Source: a bacterium A37T11 (lineage in GTDB: Bacteria; Bacteroidota; Bacteroidia; Sphingobacteriales; Sphingobacteriaceae). Taken from it: a stretch of DNA of 64,000 nucleotides. The notes beneath the pieces were generated by a model. That model saw nothing but the letters and a program-made list of their open reading frames with translations, had not been told where the DNA came from and did no database searches. Within the stretch, counting starts at the first letter, position 1, and each line of letters opens with the position of its first letter. This document shows positions 39,528-54,320 of the stretch, piece by piece. The translations under genes and the position numbers were made by a program. The stretch spans positions 1 to 64,000 of the forward strand of contig FOBR01000009.1 of assembly GCA_900109895.1 (NCBI GenBank), given 5' to 3'.

Positions 39528-39562
39528 TTTGCACACCAATATATTCCTTTTATGTAAGTTTG
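39528..39562 (+). promoter_or_regulatory. promoter of the phenylalanine hydroxylase pseudogene
   Basis: TTTG (39528-39531), 23-bp spacer, TAAGTTTG (39555-39562). The -7 box is perfect and lies 17 bases before the ATG, so the promoter seems to have outlived the gene. Confidence 0.45.
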
Positions 39563-39579: not shown

Positions 39580-41341
39580 ATGAACACCTATAATAATCCA
39601 GTGCTTGAAAAACTGCCGCTGCACCTCAAGCAATACCTGGTTGAACAACAGTATGAACGTTACACGCCCATCGACCAAGCCGTATGGCGGTATGTGATGC
39701 GCCAGAACTACAGTTACCTGAAAGACGTGGCATACTACCCTTTACATTCCCGGCATAAAAAAAGCAGGACTTAGTATTGAGTTTATCCCCGATCTGCAGT
39801 CGATGAATGACAGTTTGAAGCAAATTGGCTGGGGTGCTGCTACGGTGGACGGTTTTATCCCGCCGGTAGCTTTTATGGAATTCCAGGCGCACAAGGTACT
39901 GGTTATTGCAGCCGACATTCGTCAGATAGAACATATGGAATATACTCCGGCGCCCGATATCATACACGAGTCCTCCGGCCATGCCCCAATCATTGCTGAG
40001 CCGGAATATGCCACATACCTAAGCTATTTTGGAGAGATCGGCTCCAAAGCTATGTTTTCTTATAAAGACTTTGAATTATACGAGGCCATTCGGCATCTGT
40101 CTATCCTGAAAGAACAAGCACACGTGTCGCCTCATGAATTGGCCGCCGCAGAAGAAAAGCTCCAACATATCTAGCACAACATGGGCTATCCCTCTGAAAT
40201 GGCCTTGTTGAGCCGCCTACATTGGTGGACCGTGGAATACGGACTCATAGGCACGTTGGATCATCCCAAAATATATGGCGCCGGACTTCTGTCATCGATT
40301 GGCGAGAGTGCCAGCTGCATGCAACCCAATGTGCCTAAACTGCCCTACTCGTTGGATGCCGTCAACTTTGCCTACGATATCACCAAGCCACAACCGCAGC
40401 TATTTGTGACCCCCACTTTTGAACACTTGCTAAGTGTTTTAAACTCCTTTGCCGATAGCATGGCTTTCCGCAAAGGTGGCAAGGAAAGCCTGGAAAAAGC
40501 CATCGAATGCCAGAATGTATGTACAGCTGTGTATAGTTCCGGCCTGCAAGTGTCGGGTGTGTTTACTGGCAGCGGCGATGAGGGGCTGGTGTACCTGAAA
40601 ACCGTTGGCCCTTCTGCCCTGGCCTATGAAGGAATACAGTTGGAAGGGCATGGTAAGGCCGGCCACAGCGATGGCTTTGGTTCGCCTGTCGGGAAACTTC
40701 AGCAGGCGGGCAAGTCTCTGGAAAATTTCAAAGATGCGGATCTAGCCGCATTCCGGCTCATGCCCGGAGAAGAGGTACAGTTGCTTTTTGAATCGCGTAT
40801 CTGTGTTTCGGGTACGGTTGATAAGATCATCCGCAGACACGATAAGATCATCCTGATCCGTTTTACAGATTGTACAGTAACCCGCGCGGATACCGGGAAA
40901 ATCTATTTTCAACCTCAATGGGGTGCCTATGACATGGCTGTCGGAGAACAGATTGTTTCGGTCTTTTGCGGGGCTGCCGACAAAGATGCCTTTGAACAGG
41001 TGGCATTGATCTCGACAGAGCAAACGTTTAAGGTACAGGATAACCCAGAGAAAAAAAGATTGTATGATTTTTACGCATTGGTTCGTAAGATCAGGGAAAC
41101 AACTCAAGATACGGAAAAGTTGGAGGAAATATGGAATGGTTTGCGGCAAGCGTATCCTGATGATTGGTTATGTGCCTTGGAAATTCTGGAGATTCTGCGG
41201 CCTAATGAAAATTACTCTTCGCTGGCAAATACCATTGAATCGTTTTTGACAAACAAACAGAACACTCATCCAGATTCTAACAAGTTGATTGAGGATGGAT
41301 TGCTACTCAGTAAAGCCAGTGATAAAAGTCAACTGTACTGA
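39580..41341 (+). pseudogene. phhA: phenylalanine 4-monooxygenase, long Bacteroidota form, broken by frameshift and nonsense codon
   Basis: The whole reading is about 587 codons. Codons from 39580 give L-P-L-H-L-K-Q-Y-L-V-E-Q-Q-Y and A-V-W-R-Y-V-M-R-Q-N-Y, the family N-terminus. A one-base insertion in the CCCTTT run at 39738-39743 shifts the frame: without it the text continues Y-I-P-G-I-K-K-A-G-L-S-I into D-G-F-I-P-P-V-A-F-M-E-F-Q. The iron site H-E-S-S-G-H-A-P and R-L-H-W-W-T-V-E-Y-G-L-I-G are intact. In the same second frame a TAG at 40172-40174 interrupts E-K-L-Q-H-I / H-N-M-G-Y-P-S-E-M-A. The long C-terminal part (to 41341) is otherwise open. Two independent lesions argue against a sequencing error. 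The enzyme would convert phenylalanine to tyrosine. Confidence 0.9.
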
Positions 41342-41422
41342 ACTGTGCTGTATCCTATTATTTGGATATTTAATAATTTGTTTCTAATTTAACAAGCTGA
41401 ATAGATAAATTTGCATGAAATT

Positions 41423-41971
41423 ATGAACCTAACTTCAGATGACATATTGTTGATTGAGCTCAGAAAAGGGAACAATGGGGCCTATGATCAGTTATTTCTG
41501 AAATATTATAATGCTTTGTGCCTTCATGCTTATTTTCTGTTGAAAAACGAAGAAGAAGCAAGGGAATTGGTGCAACTTTTTTTTGTAGACCTCTGGGAAA
41601 AAAAGAAATTTTTCCTGCTTGAGGGTTCAGTCAAAAATTATTTCTATCAATCCATTAAGAATAGGTGCATGAACCACATGCGAGATGAGGCCCGTAAACG
41701 GAGGAAACAACTGGAGTGGGAACAGCATTTTTCTGAATACGAAGATGATTTAGAAACTTCACCTTCAGAGGACTTATTTCTCCTCATTGATAAGGCTGTT
41801 GAACAGCTTCCTATACAGCGAAGGGAAGCACTAAGGCTGGTATATTTACAAAATAAAAAATATCAGGAAGCTGCAAAGATAATGGGTATTAGTGTCAATT
41901 CGCTTAAGACACATCTTAAACTTGGTCTAAAAAATTTACGGGAAGGGCTAAATATTACGAAAGAAGCTTAA
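41423..41971 (+). CDS. ECF RNA polymerase sigma factor (sigma-70 family)
   Basis: 182 aa from ATG 41423; TTG 41411 gives four more residues but lies in a TAAATTTG promoter-like box (41406-41413). Region 2: A-Y-D-Q-L-F-L-K-Y-Y and E-E-A-R-E-L-V-Q-L-F-F-V-D-L-W. Region 4: L-P-I-Q-R-R-E-A-L-R-L-V-Y and the HTH Y-Q-E-A-A-K-I-M-G-I-S-V-N-S-L-K-T-H-L-K. First gene of a sigma - FecR - SusC - SusD unit and expected to activate it on receipt of the SusC signal. Confidence 0.92.
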   Translation: MNLTSDDILLIELRKGNNGAYDQLFLKYYNALCLHAYFLLKNEEEARELVQLFFVDLWEKKKFFLLEGSVKNYFYQSIKNRCMNHMRDEARKRRKQLEWEQHFSEYEDDLETSPSEDLFLLIDKAVEQLPIQRREALRLVYLQNKKYQEAAKIMGISVNSLKTHLKLGLKNLREGLNITKEA

Positions 41972-42003
41972 CCCAATTCTTTCATTTGCGTGTATAATTT
42001 TAT

Positions 42004-43152
42004 ATGACTTCCAAAAACGATCACATACGCAGTCTTTATTTTGAAAAGCTTGCAGGTATTATTTCGGCGGAGGATGAATCCGATTTGGAGGTACTGCTTG
42101 CCACTGACGCTATGGCAAAGCAGATTTGGGAGTCTTTAGAAGAACAGGCAATTAATTTACGTACTGAAGAATTTCTTCGGTGCACTGATTCCCGTAAGGC
42201 GCTGGACCAAGTTTATTCCCGAAGGGTAAATAAAAAATTCCGCCTGCCTATATATATATATTGGACTGCAGCCGCAATTATGTTACTCATATCGGGTTCA
42301 GGAATTTTATTCTTGTTGCGTCAACTACATACTATCACCGTTGACCCGAAACTTGCAACACAACAGCTCCTGGATATCCATAAAAACCAAAGTATCCAGC
42401 TTATTACTAATAACGGCACTATTGTCAAGTTGAGCGATCACACTTCAGGGATAATATCCATGGGTGGGATCGATCTGCAAACGCAACCTGGCGAACTGAC
42501 TTCTATGCATACTGGCGCCCAAATCGTCATGAGCACATTAATAGTTCCGCCCGGAAAAACCTATAAAATAATTTTGGCAGATGGCACAGCTGTCTGGGTC
42601 AATTCCGGTTCCAGCATCCGATTTCCGTCCCGTTTTGAAAGTGATACACGAGATGTATTTTTAGATGGTGAAGCTTACTTTGAAATAAGCCCGCATGCGA
42701 CTTCCCGTTTCCTTGTACATACCAAAGAAGTAACGGTTCAGGTATTAGGTACTAGCTTTAACCTGCGTGCGTATCGGGGAGAAAGTACTCAAACCGCATT
42801 AATAAGTGGGAGTGTACAGGTCGATGCAAAAGATGGATCCAGTATGCGGCTTAGTCCAGGTAAAATAGCTAACATGGGAATAAACGGTTTTTTCAGTCAG
42901 CTTTTCGATCCTGATGAATTGCTAGCTTGGCGTGAGGGAATTTATTATTTCCATCACATTCCTCTGCGTGAACTAGCTCCAGTGATGGAGCGTTGGTACG
43001 ACATTGCCGTTATTTTTGATCATCCGGAACTTTCAGGCCAGGCCGTAACGGGCCTCATGGAAAAAGAAGATTTACAACATTTCCTTTCTGATCTTAAAAC
43101 ATCTATGGGGGTAGATTATGAAGTCAGGAATGGTCAACTTCATTTTAAATAG
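42004..43152 (+). CDS. FecR-family anti-sigma factor
   Basis: 382 aa. Cytoplasmic sigma-binding part with L-A-G-I-I-S-A-E-D-E-S-D-L (about 17-29), one membrane segment (I-Y-I-Y-W-T-A-A-A-I-M-L-L-I-S-G, about 81-103), periplasmic FecR domain from V-P-P-G-K-T-Y-K (about 182) with D-G-E-A-Y-F-E-I and V-L-G-T-S-F-N-L, and a C-terminal DUF4974 region with M-E-R-W-Y-D-I-A-V. It lies 32 bp after the sigma gene and controls it in answer to the STN domain of the downstream SusC. Confidence 0.93.
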   Translation: MTSKNDHIRSLYFEKLAGIISAEDESDLEVLLATDAMAKQIWESLEEQAINLRTEEFLRCTDSRKALDQVYSRRVNKKFRLPIYIYWTAAAIMLLISGSGILFLLRQLHTITVDPKLATQQLLDIHKNQSIQLITNNGTIVKLSDHTSGIISMGGIDLQTQPGELTSMHTGAQIVMSTLIVPPGKTYKIILADGTAVWVNSGSSIRFPSRFESDTRDVFLDGEAYFEISPHATSRFLVHTKEVTVQVLGTSFNLRAYRGESTQTALISGSVQVDAKDGSSMRLSPGKIANMGINGFFSQLFDPDELLAWREGIYYFHHIPLRELAPVMERWYDIAVIFDHPELSGQAVTGLMEKEDLQHFLSDLKTSMGVDYEVRNGQLHFK

Positions 43153-43303
43153 CATCTGTCGCAATACAGCCTGACAGGAAACTCGACATAAAATATTTTT
43201 CGTATCCTTCACCCGATGTGGACTTTCTTGTGTATTAACTATACCAAATATAAACTGACTTGTTTTGAAGAACTTTTTTAAAACCATTTTCCAAATGCTT
43301 CTA

Positions 43304-43327
43304 GTTAACCAATTATTTTTAACCAAT
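43304..43327 (+). repeat. 9-bp direct repeat before susC
   Basis: TTAACCAAT occurs at 43304-43312 and again at 43319-43327, 15 bp apart, just 11 bp upstream of the SusC start. The 185-bp gap before susC has no TAnnTTTG box, so an ECF-type promoter or operator is plausible here, but this is a guess. Confidence 0.3.
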
Positions 43328-43337
43328 CATTAAAGGA

Positions 43338-46300
43338 ATGCATACCATTAAATTTTACCGAAAGTTCCGCGTTGCTTTTACCGCTGTCATTTGCCTATTG
43401 AACCTTGGCTTGTCTATGGCGTCTGCTACCGGGCAGACGGGTTTAATAAAAACAGTTACCATTAAAGGTGATCATTTGTCTATTTCGGACATTTTTGACT
43501 ACATCAAAAAAGAAACCGGACTTACCGTCTTTTACGGCGACCAGCTCCTAAATGATCAGGAACAAATAAGTGTTAATTTCAAAAGTACGCCACTGAATGA
43601 AGTGTTAAATTTTTTGCTGCGAAATAAAGGGATTGGCTACAGTCTTCGCCGGGACCGTGTCATCGTATTAGAACGAATACAACGGTCTCAGGATATTCAG
43701 ATTCAAAAGCCGATAAGCCAGGCCAAAACTCAGCAGGTAATTAGCGGCAAGGTAAGTGACATGAATGGTCCTTTGGCTGGAGTATCTATTATAGTTAAAG
43801 GTACCACCAGGGGCACCACAACAAATGGAGGAGGCAACTATAGCATTCGGGCATCGGCCAACGAAATCTTAGTCTTTAATATCATGGGTTATACCAGCCA
43901 GGAGATCAATGTAGGGCCAAACCGTGATATTAACGTTACTTTACAAGCAACTGCCCAAGATTTAAACGAGATTGTGGTTATTGGTTATGGTACAGTTCGC
44001 AAACGTGATTTGACTGGATCTGTATCACAAGTTAAAGCCAAAGAAGTCAATGCGTTTCCAAATGCTAATATCATCCAGTCGCTTTCAGGTCGGGCTGCTG
44101 GTGTGCAGATCAGGCAAAGTTCTGGTGCGCCTGGACCTTCGATGAGTATGCGGATACGCGGTGGCAACTCGATTTTAGGAAGCAATGAACCCTTGTATGT
44201 CATTGATGGCTTTCCCATTTCAGGCAATAGCCCAAACCCTTCCCACATTAACGTTACTGAAGTTGAAAGCGTAGAGGTATTGAAAGATGCGTCTGCCACA
44301 GCTATTTATGGTTCACGGGGTGCAAATGGTGTAGTATTGATCACCACCAAGCGGGGTAAGGCCGGCCAAACAGGTGTCAATTTTGAAACTAGTTTTAGCA
44401 ACCAAAAGCTAATACGCAAGCTTAATTTGATGGACGCCAAAGAGTATGCCTTATTTTATAATGAACAACGCAAAAACGATGGAGAATCTTCCTATTTCTC
44501 ACAAACTGATATAGATGGTTTCGGAAAGGGATTTGATTGGCAAGATTTTGTATTTCAAAATGCACCAATGAGCAATTCTGCCATTAATGTAAATGGTGGT
44601 AATGAACGAACCCAGTTTTCAGTTTCAGGAAGTATCTTTGACCAGGATGGCATTATTAAAGGCAGCGACTATAAACGTTATTCACTTCAATCAAGTCTCA
44701 ACCACAAAATAAGCAATAAATTTAGTTTTGAGTTGACCTCCACCCTTTCCCGCCTGATCACAGAACGTAAAGACAGCGGAGGTGGAAGCAGAGGCAATTC
44801 CATGATCGCTGCAGCGATATCTGCCCCTCCTACTCTTTCACCTTACAATGATGATGGAAGCTACCGGGTACTAAGCACTGCCTACCCATTTATTGCCACA
44901 GATATCATCAATCCTATTAATTTTATTAACGAGCGCTCTAATAAAATTATTGCCAATTCATACCTGATTAATGGTGCGGTTAATTACCGTATAACGACTG
45001 ACTTGACTTTGAAAGTAGCAGGTGGAATAGAAAACCGCGATGAACGTACCGATAGCTATATAACACGTGAATACTTTAATTCTACAGGTGTAGCAGGGGT
45101 GTCATCCACCCAATTAACTAGTTTGCTAAATGAGAATACCCTTAATTATAATAAAATATTTCATGAGAAACACAGCGTGTCAGCCGTGTTGGGATTTTCT
45201 TACCAGAACTTCGTTAATACATCATTTAGTGCTGGGGGGATTGGATATCTCAGCGATATCTTCCAAAGCTATAAGTTGCAGGTGGCAGAAACACCCAATG
45301 TCCCAACATCCAGTTATAATAAGTCGGTAATTTTATCCTTTTTGGGAAGATTAAATTATAGTTATGACGACCGTTACCTAGCTACCGTCAGCCTTCGCAG
45401 GGATGGGTCATCGAGGTATAGCAAAGGGGACCAGTGGGGATATTTTCCTTCTGGCGCATTGGCATGGAGGATTTCTTCTGAAAAATTCCTTAAAGGTAAC
45501 CCGATAATTTCCGACTTGAAAATACGAACTAGTTGGGGGCTCACTGGCAGCCAAGCCATTGATCCTTACAAGACACTGAACATTCTAGATCCCGGCAAGA
45601 TCATCTTAGATAACGATTACGCAAATACTTTCGCTCCCGGGACGGATCTTCCAGGCAAGCTTAAATGGGAAAAAACAGAGCAATTAAATGCCGGATTTGA
45701 TTTGGGATTATTTAAAAACCGATTTATACTGACAGCTGACTATTATATTAAAAATACTCGCGATCTGTTAAGTGTCGTAACTTTGCCTTCATCCATGGGC
45801 TATACTAGTACCATGCAAAACGTTGGGAAAATAAGAAATAAGGGGGTTGAATTGAGTTTGGATTCGCGCATATTTGATAAGGCTTTTACCTGGAACCTTA
45901 GTGGTAATATTGCTTTTAATCGAAGTAAGGTAATTGATCTTTATAATGATGCCGATCTGTTGCGTGATCAAGTGGGCGCAATTATAGTCAATGATGTTAC
46001 TAGCATCCTTCGAGTGGGTCAGCCAGTAGGTCGTTTCTGGGGATATCAGGAGTATGGGTACGACGAAAAAGGTAACATTATCTTTAAAGACATCAGTGGA
46101 GATGGATCTGTTTCGGCTGTAGATAAAACCTATATAGGCGATCCAAATCCGAATTTTATCTATGGTTTAAACTCAACTATGACCTATAAAAATTTTGAAT
46201 TTAGTTTCTTTTTTCAAGGTATGCAAGGTAATGACATATTCAATGCTAGCGCCATTAGTAATACCATGGATTATGGCTTTGGACTCAATATGACAAAGGA

Positions 46301-46622
46301 TGTTTACAATAACCATTGGACACCTGAAATTAAGAATCCGGACTATCCGCGCATAAGTAAGAGTACCCCTGTCAGGATTTCCAATCGTTTTATTGAAGAT
46401 GGTTCTTATCTCCGTCTTAAAAACATTATGCTAGCTTATCACCTACCTATACAGTCTTTTGGATGGAATTGGGTCAAAAGTCTGCAGGTGTATGCTAGCG
46501 GTCAGAACTTATGGACCGTTACAGACTATTCATGGTGGGATCCTGAGGCAAATTTTAGGTTGGATAATAACAGTTATCCCCTGGCAAAATCTATTACCTT
46601 TGGTCTGAAAGCAGATTTTTAA
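43338..46622 (+). CDS. SusC/RagA-family TonB-dependent transporter with STN domain
   Basis: 1094 aa. Signal peptide (...L-G-L-S-M-A-S-A-T-G-Q), STN domain about 40-115, carboxypeptidase-regulatory-like domain (V-I-S-G-K-V-S-D-M-N-G-P-L-A-G-V, about 133-205), L-N-E-I-V-V-I-G-Y-G-T, plug with V-I-D-G-F-P-I-S-G, V-E-S-V-E-V-L-K-D-A-S-A-T-A-I-Y-G-S-R-G-A-N-G-V, and a barrel ending in a terminal F. It forms the import complex with the SusD encoded 29 bp downstream. The STN domain links it to the upstream FecR/sigma pair. Confidence 0.95.
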   Translation: MHTIKFYRKFRVAFTAVICLLNLGLSMASATGQTGLIKTVTIKGDHLSISDIFDYIKKETGLTVFYGDQLLNDQEQISVNFKSTPLNEVLNFLLRNKGIGYSLRRDRVIVLERIQRSQDIQIQKPISQAKTQQVISGKVSDMNGPLAGVSIIVKGTTRGTTTNGGGNYSIRASANEILVFNIMGYTSQEINVGPNRDINVTLQATAQDLNEIVVIGYGTVRKRDLTGSVSQVKAKEVNAFPNANIIQSLSGRAAGVQIRQSSGAPGPSMSMRIRGGNSILGSNEPLYVIDGFPISGNSPNPSHINVTEVESVEVLKDASATAIYGSRGANGVVLITTKRGKAGQTGVNFETSFSNQKLIRKLNLMDAKEYALFYNEQRKNDGESSYFSQTDIDGFGKGFDWQDFVFQNAPMSNSAINVNGGNERTQFSVSGSIFDQDGIIKGSDYKRYSLQSSLNHKISNKFSFELTSTLSRLITERKDSGGGSRGNSMIAAAISAPPTLSPYNDDGSYRVLSTAYPFIATDIINPINFINERSNKIIANSYLINGAVNYRITTDLTLKVAGGIENRDERTDSYITREYFNSTGVAGVSSTQLTSLLNENTLNYNKIFHEKHSVSAVLGFSYQNFVNTSFSAGGIGYLSDIFQSYKLQVAETPNVPTSSYNKSVILSFLGRLNYSYDDRYLATVSLRRDGSSRYSKGDQWGYFPSGALAWRISSEKFLKGNPIISDLKIRTSWGLTGSQAIDPYKTLNILDPGKIILDNDYANTFAPGTDLPGKLKWEKTEQLNAGFDLGLFKNRFILTADYYIKNTRDLLSVVTLPSSMGYTSTMQNVGKIRNKGVELSLDSRIFDKAFTWNLSGNIAFNRSKVIDLYNDADLLRDQVGAIIVNDVTSILRVGQPVGRFWGYQEYGYDEKGNIIFKDISGDGSVSAVDKTYIGDPNPNFIYGLNSTMTYKNFEFSFFFQGMQGNDIFNASAISNTMDYGFGLNMTKDVYNNHWTPEIKNPDYPRISKSTPVRISNRFIEDGSYLRLKNIMLAYHLPIQSFGWNWVKSLQVYASGQNLWTVTDYSWWDPEANFRLDNNSYPLAKSITFGLKADF

Positions 46623-46651
46623 TTATATAATTACTGAATAAAGATAATAAA

Positions 46652-48100
46652 ATGAAAAGATTAGTAATCATTTTAATAGCAGGCATTTTCCTTTCTTCCT
46701 GTAATAAATGGCTCGAAGAAAATCCAAAGGAAGTGGTGGAAGAATTATTTTATAACACACCCGAAGAATTAAAAGCAGCGGTCAATGCCATTTTTCTTCC
46801 TTTGCGAGGGAGCGGGGCACAATATGCTAACTACATAGCCACCTTGGAATGTCAGTCTGACTGGATGTATGGTAGAGGTAGCTGGTCACCATTAAGCGAT
46901 TATCAGGGGCTGAATGATGTAAATATTACGAGGGTTTCCGGATTTTGGAATGCGTTCTATCTCGCAATCCGCAATGCAAATCTGGTTATTTTTAATGCTC
47001 CTCATGGTAGTGGTTCAAGTCAAGAAGAAAAAAATTTGTATATAGCCCAAGCACGTTTTCTTCGTGCTTTTATATATTTTCAGCTGGTACGTAATTGGGG
47101 AGCAGTTCCATTACGTACCGAAAACAACATGGATGAAAACAACCTAGCCAAAAGTAGTATTGAATCCATTTACGCTTTAATACTTAGTGATCTTTCTGAA
47201 GCCGAACAGGTTCTGCCAAGTGTTCCGGAAGCTGATGGACTGCCCTCCAAATGGGCGGCAAAGATTCTTCTGGCAGATGTTTTCCTGCAATTGGCCAGGT
47301 ATGATGATGCTGTTGTCAGAGTTCAGGAAGTTATGGATCAGGGTGGTTTTTCATTGGTAAAGGTGACTTCTGTCCATGACATCCAATATAATATTTTTGG
47401 CCCTGATATTTTGCATAGCAGTGAAGAAATATTTTCATTCAAGTATGCCCGTCTGGATGGACAAAGTAACTACATTCTCTGGATATCCAACCATCCCAGC
47501 ACTAAATTATTTACACCACAAGGAACGGGGGCTTATGCCGTAAATAGCGATGCCACTAATCCAAATTATGTTCACTGGGATACCAATGATCTTAGACAGA
47601 AAATGTGGAATAAAATAAACGTTGGAAATGGCCCTAATACGTTGGTAAGTTCAAAATACGTTGATCCAGCTGCATTAGATAAGAACGGTGGAGGCAATGA
47701 CCAACCAGTATACCGCTATCCTGATGCCCTGCTGATCTATGCCGAAGCTTCAGTTCGATCTTCAAATACCATTAGCGAAGCTGCGATGGAAGCTTTAAAT
47801 AAAGTTCGTCGCCGTTCCTACGGCTATGACCCTTCAGCCCCTTCTATAGTGGATTTAAAAACGAGAGACTTTACCCAAGAGACATTTATAAATCGAGTCA
47901 TTCAAGAGCGGGGATATGAATTTATTTATGAAGGAAAGCGCTGGCTGGAACTAAAAAGGACGGCTAAGCTAAATGATTTAATTCAATATGGAAAGGGTAA
48001 AACAGTGGTGGAAAAACACTTATTATGGCCTATCCCGCTATCTGAATTAAATTATAATAGTGCGATTGATCCAATTTCCGACCAAAACCCAGGGTATTGA
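46652..48100 (+). CDS. SusD/RagB-like outer-membrane lipoprotein
   Basis: 482 aa. Signal peptide with lipobox L-S-S-C (Cys17). SusD features: N-K-W-L-E-E-N-P-K-E-V at the start, A-R-F-L-R-A-F-I-Y-F-Q-L-V-R-N-W-G (about 130-146), Y-R-Y-P-D-A-L-L-I-Y-A-E-A and V-I-Q-E-R-G-Y-E-F-I-Y-E-G-K-R-W-L-E-L near the C-terminus, ending in a D-Q-N-P-G-Y. Surface ligand capture for the SusC at 43338. The next genes encode redox proteins, not glycosidases. Confidence 0.95.
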   Translation: MKRLVIILIAGIFLSSCNKWLEENPKEVVEELFYNTPEELKAAVNAIFLPLRGSGAQYANYIATLECQSDWMYGRGSWSPLSDYQGLNDVNITRVSGFWNAFYLAIRNANLVIFNAPHGSGSSQEEKNLYIAQARFLRAFIYFQLVRNWGAVPLRTENNMDENNLAKSSIESIYALILSDLSEAEQVLPSVPEADGLPSKWAAKILLADVFLQLARYDDAVVRVQEVMDQGGFSLVKVTSVHDIQYNIFGPDILHSSEEIFSFKYARLDGQSNYILWISNHPSTKLFTPQGTGAYAVNSDATNPNYVHWDTNDLRQKMWNKINVGNGPNTLVSSKYVDPAALDKNGGGNDQPVYRYPDALLIYAEASVRSSNTISEAAMEALNKVRRRSYGYDPSAPSIVDLKTRDFTQETFINRVIQERGYEFIYEGKRWLELKRTAKLNDLIQYGKGKTVVEKHLLWPIPLSELNYNSAIDPISDQNPGY

Positions 48101-48135
48101 AAAAGCTTTAACTATTGGATAAAAAGCATATTGTT

Positions 48136-49506
48136 ATGAAACGAAGAGAAGCATTAACCGCACTTGGAGCAGTTTCGCTCGGCATTACTTCCCCGTCACT
48201 TCTTCATGGAGAAGTAATGGGAGTTCCATACTCCTTAAAAAAGGGAAAAATCGATACAGATATACTTGTTATCGGAGGCGGGACTGCGGGAGTTATCGCC
48301 GCCATTCAAGCAGGACGGGCTGGAGCACGAACAGTATTAATAGAGAACGGTAGTATGCTCGGCGGTACGACCACTACTGGCGGAGTAAACTTTCCAGGTA
48401 TATTTTTTGCCTGGGGCAAGCAGGTGATCAGTGGAATTGGTTGGGAATTGGTACAGGATGCAGTATCTCTTGCGGATGGCATGCTCCCCGATTTTTCCAT
48501 TCCTCATGGTCGGCAGCATTGGAAACACCAGGTTCGCGTAAATCCAGCAGTCTACGCATTGTTGGCTGAAGAAAAATGTATACAGGCGGGTGTTCACATT
48601 CGCTTTTATGAAACCCCTATTCAAATTCGATTTCATAATAATCGCTGGATTGTGTTAACTGCGGGTAAAGGGATTGAAATGGAGATCACTTGTCATCAAC
48701 TCATCGACTGTACAGGAAATGCCTACGCGGCTTCAATAGCCGGACTATCTGTTATCCGTGAAGCAGAAACCCAGCCAGGCACGCTTCAATTTCGAATAGG
48801 TGGGTATGATCTCAAATCGCTCGACCTTGATCGCATCGCAGTTAATTATAGAAGGGCTACAGATAGCGGCGAGCTCAATCCACATGAATTTATGAATGTC
48901 AGATCTCTACTTGCCAACGCCGGCGACAATGTGCAGCATATTGCCGGGGCAGACTCAACCACATCTGAAACCCACACGTTTGCCAACTTGGCCGGAAGGA
49001 CATCTTTATTAAAAATGGTACGTTTTCTTCGAACCCAACCAGGGCTTAAATACCTAAAGATTGAAGATATGTGCAATGAAACTGCTGTCAGGGAAACATA
49101 TCGGATAGATGGAGAGTACAAGATAACTTACGACGATTACACAAGCGGACACGTGTTTGATGATGCTGTTTCCTATTCATATTATCCCATTGATCTCCAT
49201 GACGCTTATGGCGTTCAACCGAAACAGCTGGAACCTGGCAAAGTAGCAACGGTTCCGTTAAGGGCATTGATCCCACGAAATAGTAAAAACTTTCTGGTAG
49301 CAGGGCGATGCGTTTCCAGTGATCGCTTAGCTAACTCGGCCTTGCGAGTACAAGGTTCATGCATGGGAATGGGTCAGGCGGCCGCTGCTGCTGCAGTGAT
49401 AGCCTTTAAACAAGGAAAAACACCTTTAGACATTTCATTAGTAGATCTCGGCACACTATTAAAAGAACATGGGGCAATCGTGCCTGCTTCGCAAAAAGCA
49501 GTATAA
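48136..49506 (+). CDS. FAD-dependent oxidoreductase, exported (FAD_oxidored family)
   Basis: About 456 aa from the ATG at 48136; a TTG at 48115 adds seven residues. The N-terminus M-K-R-R-E-A-L-T-A-L-G-A-V is Tat-like (twin Arg). The FAD-binding Rossmann motif I-G-G-G-T-A-G-V-I-A-A-I-Q-A-G follows at about 44-58, then G-G-T-T-T-T-G-G-V and a C-terminal A-G-R-C-V-S-S-D with G-S-C-M-G-M-G-Q-A-A-A-A-A, typical of the pfam12831 group. Members are frequent in Bacteroidota nutrient-uptake loci, but their substrates are mostly unknown. It starts 35 bp after susD and is followed, with a possible overlap, by a probable flavoprotein gene. Confidence 0.87.
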   Translation: MKRREALTALGAVSLGITSPSLLHGEVMGVPYSLKKGKIDTDILVIGGGTAGVIAAIQAGRAGARTVLIENGSMLGGTTTTGGVNFPGIFFAWGKQVISGIGWELVQDAVSLADGMLPDFSIPHGRQHWKHQVRVNPAVYALLAEEKCIQAGVHIRFYETPIQIRFHNNRWIVLTAGKGIEMEITCHQLIDCTGNAYAASIAGLSVIREAETQPGTLQFRIGGYDLKSLDLDRIAVNYRRATDSGELNPHEFMNVRSLLANAGDNVQHIAGADSTTSETHTFANLAGRTSLLKMVRFLRTQPGLKYLKIEDMCNETAVRETYRIDGEYKITYDDYTSGHVFDDAVSYSYYPIDLHDAYGVQPKQLEPGKVATVPLRALIPRNSKNFLVAGRCVSSDRLANSALRVQGSCMGMGQAAAAAAVIAFKQGKTPLDISLVDLGTLLKEHGAIVPASQKAV

Positions 49507-49531
49507 AAGGATGCTATGGCTATCAACATAC

Positions 49532-50653
49532 ATGAAATACACATTGGTTTTCATTTTGTATTTAGGTTGCAGCATAAATACGGTTTTTTCACAAGGGGAA
49601 ACAAAGACTACAAGATATTTTGTTCAAGCTAGCGTTGTTCAACAACCTGCTTTCGTCAGGAGCATTAAAGTGAAACAACAAAGTGGTTTTTATCCAGATA
49701 CGCTATTTCAAGTTTTGGATAAAGATAGCCTGTCAATCGCTTATTACCGGAACATTGCTCAAGAAGTTTGCTATGATAAAAAATGCCGATTATTGCGGTT
49801 GAATTTGTATTGGAACATAACAGGACGGTATTTGGGCATAGAGTTACCAACTGGTGAATACCTTAGTAAAACAGATCATGTGCCTTTTACCCAAACAGAA
49901 TACAAAAGACTGAATGAAATATTGTCTGACCCGTCTTCCCCATTGGCAGGAATTTCATATGATGCCCTAGCAACTCCAGATAGCGCTGTTTTTGATAATC
50001 TGGACGGCATTACTGGTGCTACCACTAAAAGTATGGTTCGCTATATTATTCCTGGAGCAGCGTATACTACTTATACATTATGGCACTTAGTATATAGCCA
50101 AACTCAAAAGCAGATTCAGCAAATCACTGAACGCACCATTTCTTCCGATCAATTGATACGTATTATGAGTAGTCCTTCACCAACAGATCAACAGTGGGCT
50201 TTGGCGCACGTGCATCTTGTGCCACTATCCACGTTCTTGCGAGAAAAGGTATTGAAACTTATCAATGATGATAATTATCATCTAGCGATTCTGGCCTTGA
50301 ATAGTTTCAGTAATCGTCAGCTGAAAAGTGACACTGTGAAACAGAATCTTGTAAATCTGTTCATCAAATCCGGATACAGTATCAGGTTATTGATCATCGA
50401 GAAACTATTCAGTTTAGATAAATTTTCACAACCCACGCTGCTCTCTTTGGCAAGAGAGTTGCCACAATTAAATGGCGAGCCTTTGCTGGGCGTCTTTCGT
50501 ATATTTCGAAGGCAAAAGGTGAAAGACGACCAAATCATTGCAATAATAAGGAGTTTGATAAACCATTCAAATCCATTTATAGCTAGGCAAGCAGAGGATT
50601 ATCTAAAATTTATTGGGAAAATTTCGACGACCACTACCGCCTCCGGAACTTGA
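49532..50653 (+). CDS. exported FMN-binding-like protein with HEAT-like C-terminus (candidate covalent flavoprotein)
   Basis: 373 aa from ATG 49532 (signal peptide M-K-Y-T-L-V-F-I-L-Y-L to ...N-T-V-F-S-Q); ATG 49511 is an alternative. The middle has D-G-I-T-G-A-T-T-K-S (DNA 50003-50032), matching the D-x-x-(S/T)-G-A-T motif at which ApbE attaches FMN to Thr in NqrC/RnfG-type domains; the candidate Thr codon is 50021-50023. The stretch before it (Y-L-G-I-E-L-P-T-G-E-Y-L onward) could be a divergent FMN-binding domain. Residues beyond it form repeated helix pairs that look like HEAT repeats. It is last in the sigma-FecR-SusCD-FAD oxidoreductase operon. Function is unknown; electron transfer to the FAD protein is inference. 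Confidence 0.6.
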   Translation: MKYTLVFILYLGCSINTVFSQGETKTTRYFVQASVVQQPAFVRSIKVKQQSGFYPDTLFQVLDKDSLSIAYYRNIAQEVCYDKKCRLLRLNLYWNITGRYLGIELPTGEYLSKTDHVPFTQTEYKRLNEILSDPSSPLAGISYDALATPDSAVFDNLDGITGATTKSMVRYIIPGAAYTTYTLWHLVYSQTQKQIQQITERTISSDQLIRIMSSPSPTDQQWALAHVHLVPLSTFLREKVLKLINDDNYHLAILALNSFSNRQLKSDTVKQNLVNLFIKSGYSIRLLIIEKLFSLDKFSQPTLLSLARELPQLNGEPLLGVFRIFRRQKVKDDQIIAIIRSLINHSNPFIARQAEDYLKFIGKISTTTTASGT

Positions 50654-51851
50654 TCACCCGCTTAAAAGTACCCCAGGCATCTTTTAAAATAAGGTGTTTT
50701 TTAGTTAGCCAAAGTGTTTCATATAACCGAAGGTTACGAAAGTTTAACTTAACTCCAGTTGCTAAAAAGAAAGCAAATCTACGTGAAGCAGCTCTTGTTC
50801 GACGGGTATACTGATATGGTTGCATTAATCGCAGACTTTGAATTTTTTGCGGTACGAAACTCATTTTCCTCATTTTTTCCGATTCTGAAAGCAAATCTTT
50901 GCCGCGTAAAGTGCGTGCAATAACTAAACTAACCCCTTCTTTTTCAGTAAAATCCGGATATCCGTCCTTTGTTTCCCAGGCATCTCCTACCGCAATATCT
51001 GCTTGTATACCAATGCCTTCTGGACACACTTTACACCGAAAATGAAGATGTTGATTTAACGTTTTCCCCCAAGAATCGTTATATGTTCGCTTAAAGGTTT
51101 TTTTTAAACTATCGGTAAATGTAAAATATCCTGGCCATCCACCTCCACGGTAGGATAGGTTATGAACCGGCTCTTTAGCATGGAAGTCAGTAATTATTGC
51201 TTTTGTTCCAATAAATGATGGTATACCAGCACACATAATAGAAACAGTCAATACAATACGGGCTGAATATTGCGGATATTCGGCCAAAATATTTTTAAGT
51301 GCAGAAATATCACAAGGCTTACCAATAAAACAATACCTATCCTCGTTTTCTTCAAATAATTTGAGAATATTATTAAATACCAAGGCGGGTGCATACTTCG
51401 ACGAAGCACAACGGAGAACTTCTTCCCTAGTTTTAGAAACTTGAAGTTGGTTCCGTAAATAGTCTGCAGCATCTCCACCAATTTGTAATACAGCATCTGC
51501 CTTTCCGCTTTCCAACATAAAAATTCCAATTGCACTTACGATACCTCCTGAGGATCCTTTCGTACGAATCTCTTGATCCAGAGAATACCCAGCGCTTAAT
51601 TGTTCGATATGTCCCCAAACCATTTCATTTTTTTCAAACGGAATATCGTTTATAATATTTAACCCTGGACAGGTTTTCTGAATAATTTTTTCCTTTTCTT
51701 CATCGTGATTCTTAATTTTAGGGTGAAAAAATCCATCTTCACCCAACCTCATTTCCAAGTTTTCTTTACCAAAAACACTTTCGCACAGACCACATCCCAA
51801 ACAAAGTCCATATTTATCTATTTTCTCGATAACAGAAAGGTTCATAAGCAT
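50634..51851 (-). CDS. coenzyme F420 hydrogenase/dehydrogenase beta-subunit-like (FrhB family) protein
   Basis: 405 aa, cytoplasmic. N-terminal Fe-S cluster motif G-L-C-L-G-C-G-L-C-E-S-V-F-G (about 15-28), then F-I-G-K-P-C-D-I-S-A-L and S-I-M-C-A-G, L-S-Y-R-G-G-G-W-P-G, and a second Cys set C-K-V-C-P-E-G. The family covers flavin/Fe-S proteins; Bacteroidota members typically lie in polysaccharide clusters beside polysaccharide pyruvyl transferases, as here (5 bp from 51856). True F420 use is unlikely in this phylum. Its 3' end overlaps the convergent flavoprotein gene by 20 bp. Confidence 0.85.
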   Translation of the reverse strand: MLMNLSVIEKIDKYGLCLGCGLCESVFGKENLEMRLGEDGFFHPKIKNHDEEKEKIIQKTCPGLNIINDIPFEKNEMVWGHIEQLSAGYSLDQEIRTKGSSGGIVSAIGIFMLESGKADAVLQIGGDAADYLRNQLQVSKTREEVLRCASSKYAPALVFNNILKLFEENEDRYCFIGKPCDISALKNILAEYPQYSARIVLTVSIMCAGIPSFIGTKAIITDFHAKEPVHNLSYRGGGWPGYFTFTDSLKKTFKRTYNDSWGKTLNQHLHFRCKVCPEGIGIQADIAVGDAWETKDGYPDFTEKEGVSLVIARTLRGKDLLSESEKMRKMSFVPQKIQSLRLMQPYQYTRRTRAASRRFAFFLATGVKLNFRNLRLYETLWLTKKHLILKDAWGTFKRVIKFRRR

Positions 51852-51855
51852 TCCT

Positions 51856-53064
51856 TTACTTGGTTAATATATGATATAGAAGTTCTTTTAAATAGTCTAA
51901 CCGTGGTTTGACTATTTCTTGGTTACTCTGGGATATTTTCGCTTTTAACTGATTCTTGTTATCAAAAGCCTTCCTAAGTCCCTGAAAAACCACACTTTCT
52001 TCTTGTTTTACACAATCACCCAACCAAGGGTATTGTAATGTATCAGCAAACAGACCATTAAATTTACGACTATAAGCCATTGGGTAAACAGGTACTCCAG
52101 TAGAAAAAGCTGCAATACATGCATGCATTCGAGCACCTGTAAAAAAATCCATTCCGCTGATATAGCTCTTCGCTTCAATTGGTGTGGTAAACTTAGGAAT
52201 GACATCTACCTTCGGAAATTCTTCTTTCAATGCTATTGCTGCAGCATAGTCGTCTTCTACTGCTTGTTCATCAGGTATCACATGCGATATAATATGTACT
52301 TTAACCGATACTTGTGAACAAAAATATTTAATGACCTCCCTAATCAATTTTTTGTAGTCTGTATGCATTTCAAATTGGTTATTGCGGGAGTATCCTCCAT
52401 TCCACAATAGTCCGGAAACATTTATTCCTACATGTACAAAATCAGTTGGTAGGTATATTTTAGTATAAGGCATATAAAAAGCGACATCAATAGTCTCTGC
52501 TATTTTATCGGAAGGTAATTTCCTTGCAGTATAGGCATAGCTTTGCTGATCTCGGCTTATGACTATATCTGCCTGATCCATCGCTTTAAATGCTTCGACT
52601 TCATTTTTCGGGTTATTAAACGGACCTATGGTTTGTGGTAGAAGTGCCAATTTTTTTGCCTTTTTGCCAAAATAGAACTTGCTATTTAAAATTTTTCGAA
52701 AGCGCACATCTCCATAGATATCCGTAAAGCTATCTCCTTCGGCAATATCAAACGCGTATTCAATACGGCGAATATCGACTAGATGATGTTTTTTAGGAAA
52801 TAGCCACAGTTTTATCCGCCATTTCCAATCGTAGAAATTAAGTCCGGGAATGTTGGTAAAGTGTAGCGTTCTTTCCCCAATCCGCAACTGGTCTTGTCCA
52901 CTCCGTTCACTCCCGAAAAATGAAAATTCAACCGATAATTGATGCTCAGCTGCGACATCATTTAGGATAGCAAGAGCTGAATAAGCCAATGCAGCAACTC
53001 CCAAGTTCTTATTATATGGGTTAGCCCAGATAATACCTATCTGTAGTTTTTTATTTTTTTTCAT
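51856..53064 (-). CDS. polysaccharide pyruvyl transferase family protein
   Basis: 402 aa. Begins I-G-I-I-W-A-N-P-Y-N-K-N-L-G-V-A-A-L, typical of the WcaK/CsaB fold, has D-I-A-E-G-D-S-F-T-D-I-Y-G, L-P-Q-T-I-G-P-F and, near the C-terminus, F-F-T-G-A-R-M-H-A-C-I-A-A-F-S-T-G-V-P-V with the conserved R-x-H. The enzyme transfers pyruvyl groups onto surface sugars from phosphoenolpyruvate. Only its FrhB-like partner is next to it; no glycosyltransferase, flippase or polymerase is in reach, so this is an isolated two-gene module. Confidence 0.88.
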   Translation of the reverse strand: MKKNKKLQIGIIWANPYNKNLGVAALAYSALAILNDVAAEHQLSVEFSFFGSERSGQDQLRIGERTLHFTNIPGLNFYDWKWRIKLWLFPKKHHLVDIRRIEYAFDIAEGDSFTDIYGDVRFRKILNSKFYFGKKAKKLALLPQTIGPFNNPKNEVEAFKAMDQADIVISRDQQSYAYTARKLPSDKIAETIDVAFYMPYTKIYLPTDFVHVGINVSGLLWNGGYSRNNQFEMHTDYKKLIREVIKYFCSQVSVKVHIISHVIPDEQAVEDDYAAAIALKEEFPKVDVIPKFTTPIEAKSYISGMDFFTGARMHACIAAFSTGVPVYPMAYSRKFNGLFADTLQYPWLGDCVKQEESVVFQGLRKAFDNKNQLKAKISQSNQEIVKPRLDYLKELLYHILTK

Positions 53065-53120: not shown

Positions 53121-54018
53121 CTACCCCAACAACAAAACCTTCCAGGCCTTATAAACCTCTCCCCTATCCAGCATTTCTGCTGCTTTCCGATGAAGTTGAA
53201 TCCGAAGGCTAGTTTTATCGCCAATAAAGGCATCCAGCAATTCTTTGATTTCCGGCTCAAGGGATAGGGCAGCTACTTCCTCCTCCTCAGGCAATTTTTC
53301 CACATTTCCCAACTGCCCCAGATGATTTCCCGTTAGGATCGAAGAAAGGCGAATGTGTTGCGGGAGCTGGTCAACACCAATTCCCATCTTTCGGAGTGGT
53401 TTTTCCACTTGGAACAGGTTGTCACGGTTTACGCGGCAATACCAGTCGCCGCCTAATCGGGCTACCAAATCCATGGAGGCCTGATCTATATGCTGGTTTT
53501 CGTCGAGTAAATTTTCCTGAATATGCATGCGAACAATCTCTGCCAGTACTAAATTACCTGCACCAGGAATGCTGGCCAAACTAATTACCTCCCTAACTAC
53601 ACATTCCAATTGTATCGGCGATTCTGATACGCGTGGCGGTCGAACAAGTTCAGAAGCAATGGGAGTAAATCCCGATTTATCAAATTCGTTGACCCCTTTT
53701 GGATATTCGGTACTGGCCAAAGACTGTTGTTGAACCATTGCATAGTTCACAATGTTGATCACCACCTCGGGAATTTCCCGGATATTATCAAGGCTGTGCT
53801 TGCTACTGCCGTCGCGCATTCTGAACAACGGTGAAAACACACATATGGGTGGTTGATGCGACATCAGATTAAAATAGCTGAAGGGGCTTAAATTTACTTG
53901 TCCATTTCTATCTATAGTACTGGCAAAGCAGATTGGACGGGGTACAATGGCATATTTAATAAGATTATCAAACAGGGCCGTTTGGGATGGATCTATTGTC
54001 TTTGTCTGGAACAAAATG

Positions 54019-54032
<14 letters not shown>
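53121..54032 (-). CDS. flavin reductase family protein (FMN split barrel)
   Basis: 303 aa with GTG start at 54032. The flavin reductase-like domain occupies about residues 20-200: A-I-V-P-R-P-I-C-F-A-S-T-I-D-R-N-G, N-L-S-P-F-S-Y-F-N, and an H-x-D-N-I-like stretch. An extra helical C-terminus (200-303) follows. The start codon overlaps the stop of a truncated fumarylacetoacetate-hydrolase-family gene by 14 bases, showing that both were once one operon. In Bacteroidota this flavin reductase type is often found with tyrosine-degradation genes. It appears intact, but its pathway neighbours are gone. Confidence 0.85.
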
Positions 54033-54253
<221 letters not shown>

Positions 54254-54272: not shown

Positions 54273-54320
54273 GAGTATTGAGACCGCTTTTAAGACGTTC
54301 TCAATACTCTATACTCAATA
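54273..54320. repeat. three-copy CTCAATACT repeat with 11-bp hairpin
   Basis: GAGTATTGAGA (54273-54283) and its complement TCTCAATACTC (54299-54309) form an 11-bp stem around a 15-base loop; a third copy ACTCAATACT follows at 54313-54322, ending inside the stop of the next minus gene. It lies between the 3' ends of the HPPD remnant and the sugar-oxidation operon and could act as their shared terminator or be a small intergenic repeat. Confidence 0.5.

Follow-up and report, generated by a model that had tools for sequence, protein, structure and literature searches.

Does the biopterin-dependent phenylalanine hydroxylase (PAH) gene at positions 39580-41341 (forward strand) of the window, i.e., the whole 64,000-nucleotide stretch of DNA analysed here, still yield an enzyme, or is it a gene that was lost so lately that most of its frame is still legible? 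Profile matches assign it to the long type of PAH (NF010657; PRK14056.1). Its 5' part (39580..39774) opens with the ATG at 39580, reads MNTYNNPVLEKLP...DVAYYP and falls out of frame at the CCCTTT run at 39738..39743; translation gives a first product of 64 residues, made up of 54 homologous codons (residues 1-54, 89% identical to the PAH of Parapedobacter tibetensis) followed by 10 out-of-frame codons and the stop TAG at 39772-39774. The homologous frame restarts one base on as (L)YIPGIKKAGLSIEF... and stays open until a second, in-frame TAG at 40172..40174, thereby encoding the first part of the catalytic domain (39744..40171; NF010657 and PF00351 matches), with the iron ligands His-130 and His-135 in an HESSGHAP motif that is conserved in 110 homologues. 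Past this TAG the frame continues as HNMGYPSEM... and is open to the TGA ending at 41341; this remainder (40175..41341; 61% identity to P. tibetensis) comprises HWWTVEYG, with the ligand Glu-220, and the long C-terminal domain. The open reading frame (ORF) that it contains (ATG 40181, 386 aa) alone scores 422 bits against NF010657, whose curated cut-off is 346 bits; reading the shifted frame on past the TAG raises the score to 682 bits. The 2-His-1-Glu iron site (HExxGHAP and WWTVEYG; His-130, His-135, and Glu-220 of the read-through frame) is thus kept in full, and its three ligands are invariant in the 110 homologues. The gene nevertheless lacks one continuous open frame from which a functional enzyme could be made, given the stop after 64 codons and the second, in-frame TAG, and it is the sole PF00351 locus in the genome (5.09 Mb, 97.5% complete).

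The initial annotation had described these two lesions, a +1 insertion and an in-frame amber codon in a gene with preserved catalytic motifs and C-terminal part, and all of these features are borne out at the positions given above. It had also held that the promoter is still present, plausibly so: at 39555-39562 lies a perfect Bacteroidota -7 element (TAAGTTTG), with a possible -33 TTTG (39528-39531) at a spacing of 23 nt upstream, both on the forward strand, although these are consensus matches from a pattern search that returns 83 such -7 elements in the window.

The relatives of this Parapedobacter-like bacterium (genomes of its family, referred to by G numbers) show what the intact gene looks like. 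The closest PAH genes are those of two genomes of one genus (G115, 69% identity; G109, 65%), and the nearest named one is that of P. tibetensis (68-69%). The catalytic core, iron ligands, and C-terminal extension are common to the window gene and the long-type PAHs of Sphingobacteriaceae, from which it differs in being split by the frameshift and the amber codon. Where the window has the frameshift, all 12 relatives inspected encode Tyr-Tyr-Pro-Tyr-Ile with one base fewer, and the CCCTTTA of the window occurs in none of them; at the position of the in-frame TAG, the 110 homologues mostly have Gln (65), and otherwise Ser (25), Ala (11), Asn (8), or Leu (1). Both disabling lesions are therefore absent from the relatives inspected, as is expected of a pseudogene. 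A PAH match is present in 287 of 400 family genomes, and nearly all of the matches listed are free of internal stops, indicating that the double break is not a trait of the family; a search for a second genome of the organism's own genus found none. We also considered pterin-4a-carbinolamine dehydratase (PF01329) as a cofactor gene lost together with PAH and rejected it as uninformative: it is absent here and equally missing from six genomes with an intact long-type PAH (G001, G005, G006, G012, G013, and G016). The long-type PAH may need no such dehydratase or may rely on another recycling enzyme.

The age of the damage can be gauged from how little else has changed. The window PAH differs at only 2 of 165 near-invariant sites (alignment columns at least 98% identical among the 110 intact homologues), and both replacements are conservative (L to I, I to M); the intact homologues themselves have a mean of 1.0 and a maximum of 16 changed sites, placing the window gene within their range, with no excess of change at conserved sites. 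Its root-to-tip distance is the second lowest of the 25 sequences on the tree, and its codon-position patterns resemble those of intact pairs, with no shift. Since synonymous sites are saturated against the nearest relatives (pS about 0.85), pairwise dN/dS on the two halves of the gene was dropped in favor of the codon-position patterns and the invariant-site test; the halves differ only as the slower N-terminal domain predicts. The conserved near-invariant sites, the short branch, and the unchanged codon-position pattern together argue that the gene was under normal selection until very recently. As far as sequence can tell, the absence of a relaxed-selection signal would be consistent only with a very recent inactivation, such a signal not being required of a young pseudogene. 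By a rough estimate from the Poisson upper limit (6.3 changes in 165-180 sites), neutral nucleotide change since then would amount to at most about 1.6-1.7%. These results, taken with the lesions themselves, support the earlier proposal of a recent, twofold inactivation.

A second, independent disruption lies about 13 kb away, where the initial annotation had pointed to a scar in the tyrosine pathway near 54 kb. The scar is real: the 3' ends of the genes for fumarylacetoacetase (FAH) and 4-hydroxyphenylpyruvate dioxygenase (HPPD) are fused on opposite strands at about 54030-54250, beside an intact flavin reductase-like gene (53121..54032, reverse strand; PF01613). The FAH stub comprises the last ~36 codons (54029..54133, reverse strand; tblastn to the FAH 3' ends of six relatives), and the HPPD stub the last 39 codons plus the stop (54134..54253, forward strand; TIGR01263, E = 3.3e-12, profile positions 315-353), with the exact breakpoint uncertain within about 54110-54147. 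Judging from the coordinates of G109 and G013, one deletion of ~3.2-3.6 kb between FAH and HPPD removed the homogentisate dioxygenase gene (HmgA), which is absent from the genome; the other two FAA-hydrolase genes of the genome belong to shorter types present in nearly all relatives. The ancestral arrangement is seen uninterrupted in G109 as PAH(+)-flavin reductase(-)-FAH(-)-HmgA(+)-HPPD(+); the positions in G188 agree with it, as do those in G013, there with a spacer. The surviving pieces in the window keep the order and strands of this Phe/Tyr homogentisate cluster, from which the window departs in lacking HmgA and most of FAH and HPPD and in having an inserted 11.7 kb block (41411..53064) coding for an ECF sigma factor, FecR, SusC, SusD, an FAD oxidoreductase, an FrhB-like protein, and a polysaccharide pyruvyl transferase. 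PAH and the flavin reductase, direct convergent neighbors in G109 and G188, thus come to lie 11.7 kb apart; a search of the PAH end of the block for repeats, as would mark the end of an insertion sequence, found none. This shared ancestral order shows that the initial annotation was right to link PAH with the scar, both being parts of one ancestral cluster. The flavin reductase (64-66% identity to its counterparts, with the same neighbors, in G109 and G188) has 3 of 79 near-invariant sites changed (R to F, V to I, V to I); selection on it may have begun to relax, or it may serve a separate role. The gap that follows the HPPD stub contains a 14-nt inverted repeat (GAGTATTGAGACCG / CGTTCTCAATACTC; 54273-54309), which could be a terminator or a small repetitive element. 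Our literature search on the loss of the homogentisate cluster in Sphingobacteriaceae returned nothing.

The two disruptions appear to differ in age. In the HPPD stub, 4 of 26 near-invariant sites are changed (P to S, F to L, G to V, F to L), whereas none of 38 intact HPPD homologues has more than one such change; against 2 of 165 or 2 of 180 sites in PAH the difference gives a Fisher p of about 0.003. Since the stub is more decayed than PAH, the FAH-HPPD deletion probably preceded the PAH lesions, an order read from a stub of 39 aa in which two of the four changes adjoin the breakpoint and might be artefacts of the junction; setting these aside leaves 2 of about 22 to 24, which is no longer clearly significant. 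The genome also has a TyrA gene (PF02153) with an open frame of 287 aa, and thus tyrosine can still be made independently of PAH. The suggestion of a recent loss of the route from Phe through Tyr to homogentisate accordingly stands for the catabolic use of these amino acids, with the amendments that the events look sequential and that tyrosine synthesis is kept.

Taken together, we consider the locus to be, very probably, an extremely young pseudogene of a catabolic long-type PAH that became useless once the homogentisate branch was lost. The deletion would have been the initial event and put an end to homogentisate catabolism; as TyrA provides tyrosine, PAH would have been left without a role, and it would then have been struck by the one-base insertion and the nonsense mutation too lately for missense decay to become visible. 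The 64-aa product cannot be an enzyme, and the 386-aa C-terminal ORF would at best be translated as a by-product. This is ordinary gene decay, an event of a known kind that is unusually well documented here, and involves no new mechanism or system. It shares the stepwise inactivation of functionally linked genes with other bacterial pseudogenes that arise by pathway loss under relaxed selection, and differs from them in having been caught at an unusually early stage with the order of events inferable. It is thus a clear case from nature of a pathway decaying step by step, with a deletion probably followed by loss of the upstream enzyme.

The near-absence of missense decay and the lack of acceleration on the tree would equally be seen if both lesions were sequencing or assembly errors in a genome with an intact PAH, and the frameshift, as a singleton with a good homologue, belongs to a class that is often erroneous (PMC3711429). 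Such errors would, however, have had to place two independent lesions of different kinds, one a single-base insertion into a three-base run and the other a substitution, in a single gene, with no other such lesion obvious in the 64 kb window, and to have done so in the very pathway that an unrelated deletion of 3 kb interrupts 13 kb away. Moreover, the 99.8 kb examined is 94% coding, with just three gaps longer than 250 bp, the FAH/HPPD scar among them, and hence shows little sign of assembly indel noise. That two types of lesion coincide in a single gene whose pathway also carries a real deletion nearby makes error unlikely, and we leave it only a small chance.

The intactness of the C-terminal part raises the question of whether it has become a gene in its own right, translated by termination-reinitiation from the ATG at 40181, 7 nt after the TAG. 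Its length, the closeness of its start to the stop, and the conservation of the domain would favor this, but the ORF retains only one of the three iron ligands, the frameshift upstream prevents ribosomes from arriving at the TAG in the proper frame, and none of the relatives listed has the split arrangement. We thus regard a new functional gene as highly improbable, and independent use of the ORF as unsupported. Less probable still is a full-length PAH made by a programmed +1 frameshift at CCCTTTA combined with amber readthrough. The intact frame and catalytic residues would be accounted for, but a single message would have to undergo two rare events, the heptamer C-CCT-TTA would favor a -1 shift where +1 is needed, and the shift site is not conserved, being missing from the 12 relatives inspected. 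Further, TAG is a normal stop here, ending 10 of the 44 window genes, and no amber-suppressor tRNA (anticodon CTA, reading UAG) is found among the 42 tRNA genes detected. Recoding was rejected on these grounds, leaving decay of a catabolic PAH as the preferred reading.

This reading suggests a testable rule for when bacteria can afford to lose PAH. Among the 10 TyrA-positive relatives with high completeness, counted as independent despite their relatedness, PAH and HPPD are either both present (six: G004, G007, G016, G109, G115, and G188) or both absent (four: G003, G015, G017, and G027), without exception. The pairing is broken in some genomes without a convincing TyrA match, with PAH occurring without HPPD in G006 and HPPD without PAH in G010 and G022. 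We tentatively propose, with more doubt than conviction, that in Sphingobacteriaceae the fate of PAH hinges on the presence of TyrA: where TyrA occurs, PAH would be purely catabolic and lost whenever the homogentisate branch goes, and where it does not, PAH would perhaps make tyrosine and be decoupled from HPPD, the window genome being a snapshot of the first fate. Twelve sampled family genomes have PAH and no convincing TyrA (PF02153) match (e.g., G001, G005, G011-G014, G020, G034, and G035), and 13 others have neither. In such PAH-positive genomes PAH may be the only tyrosine-making enzyme; tyrosine-making PAHs are known from Dyella, Legionella, and, in addition to prephenate dehydrogenase, Echinicola (PMC7311316). 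Apparently broken PAH genes also occur in three other family genomes, with a frame change near codon 448 in G336 (L196), a TAG near the C-terminus in G323 (L191), and an early stop near codon 129 in G266 (L192), possibly representing independent breaks in other lineages.
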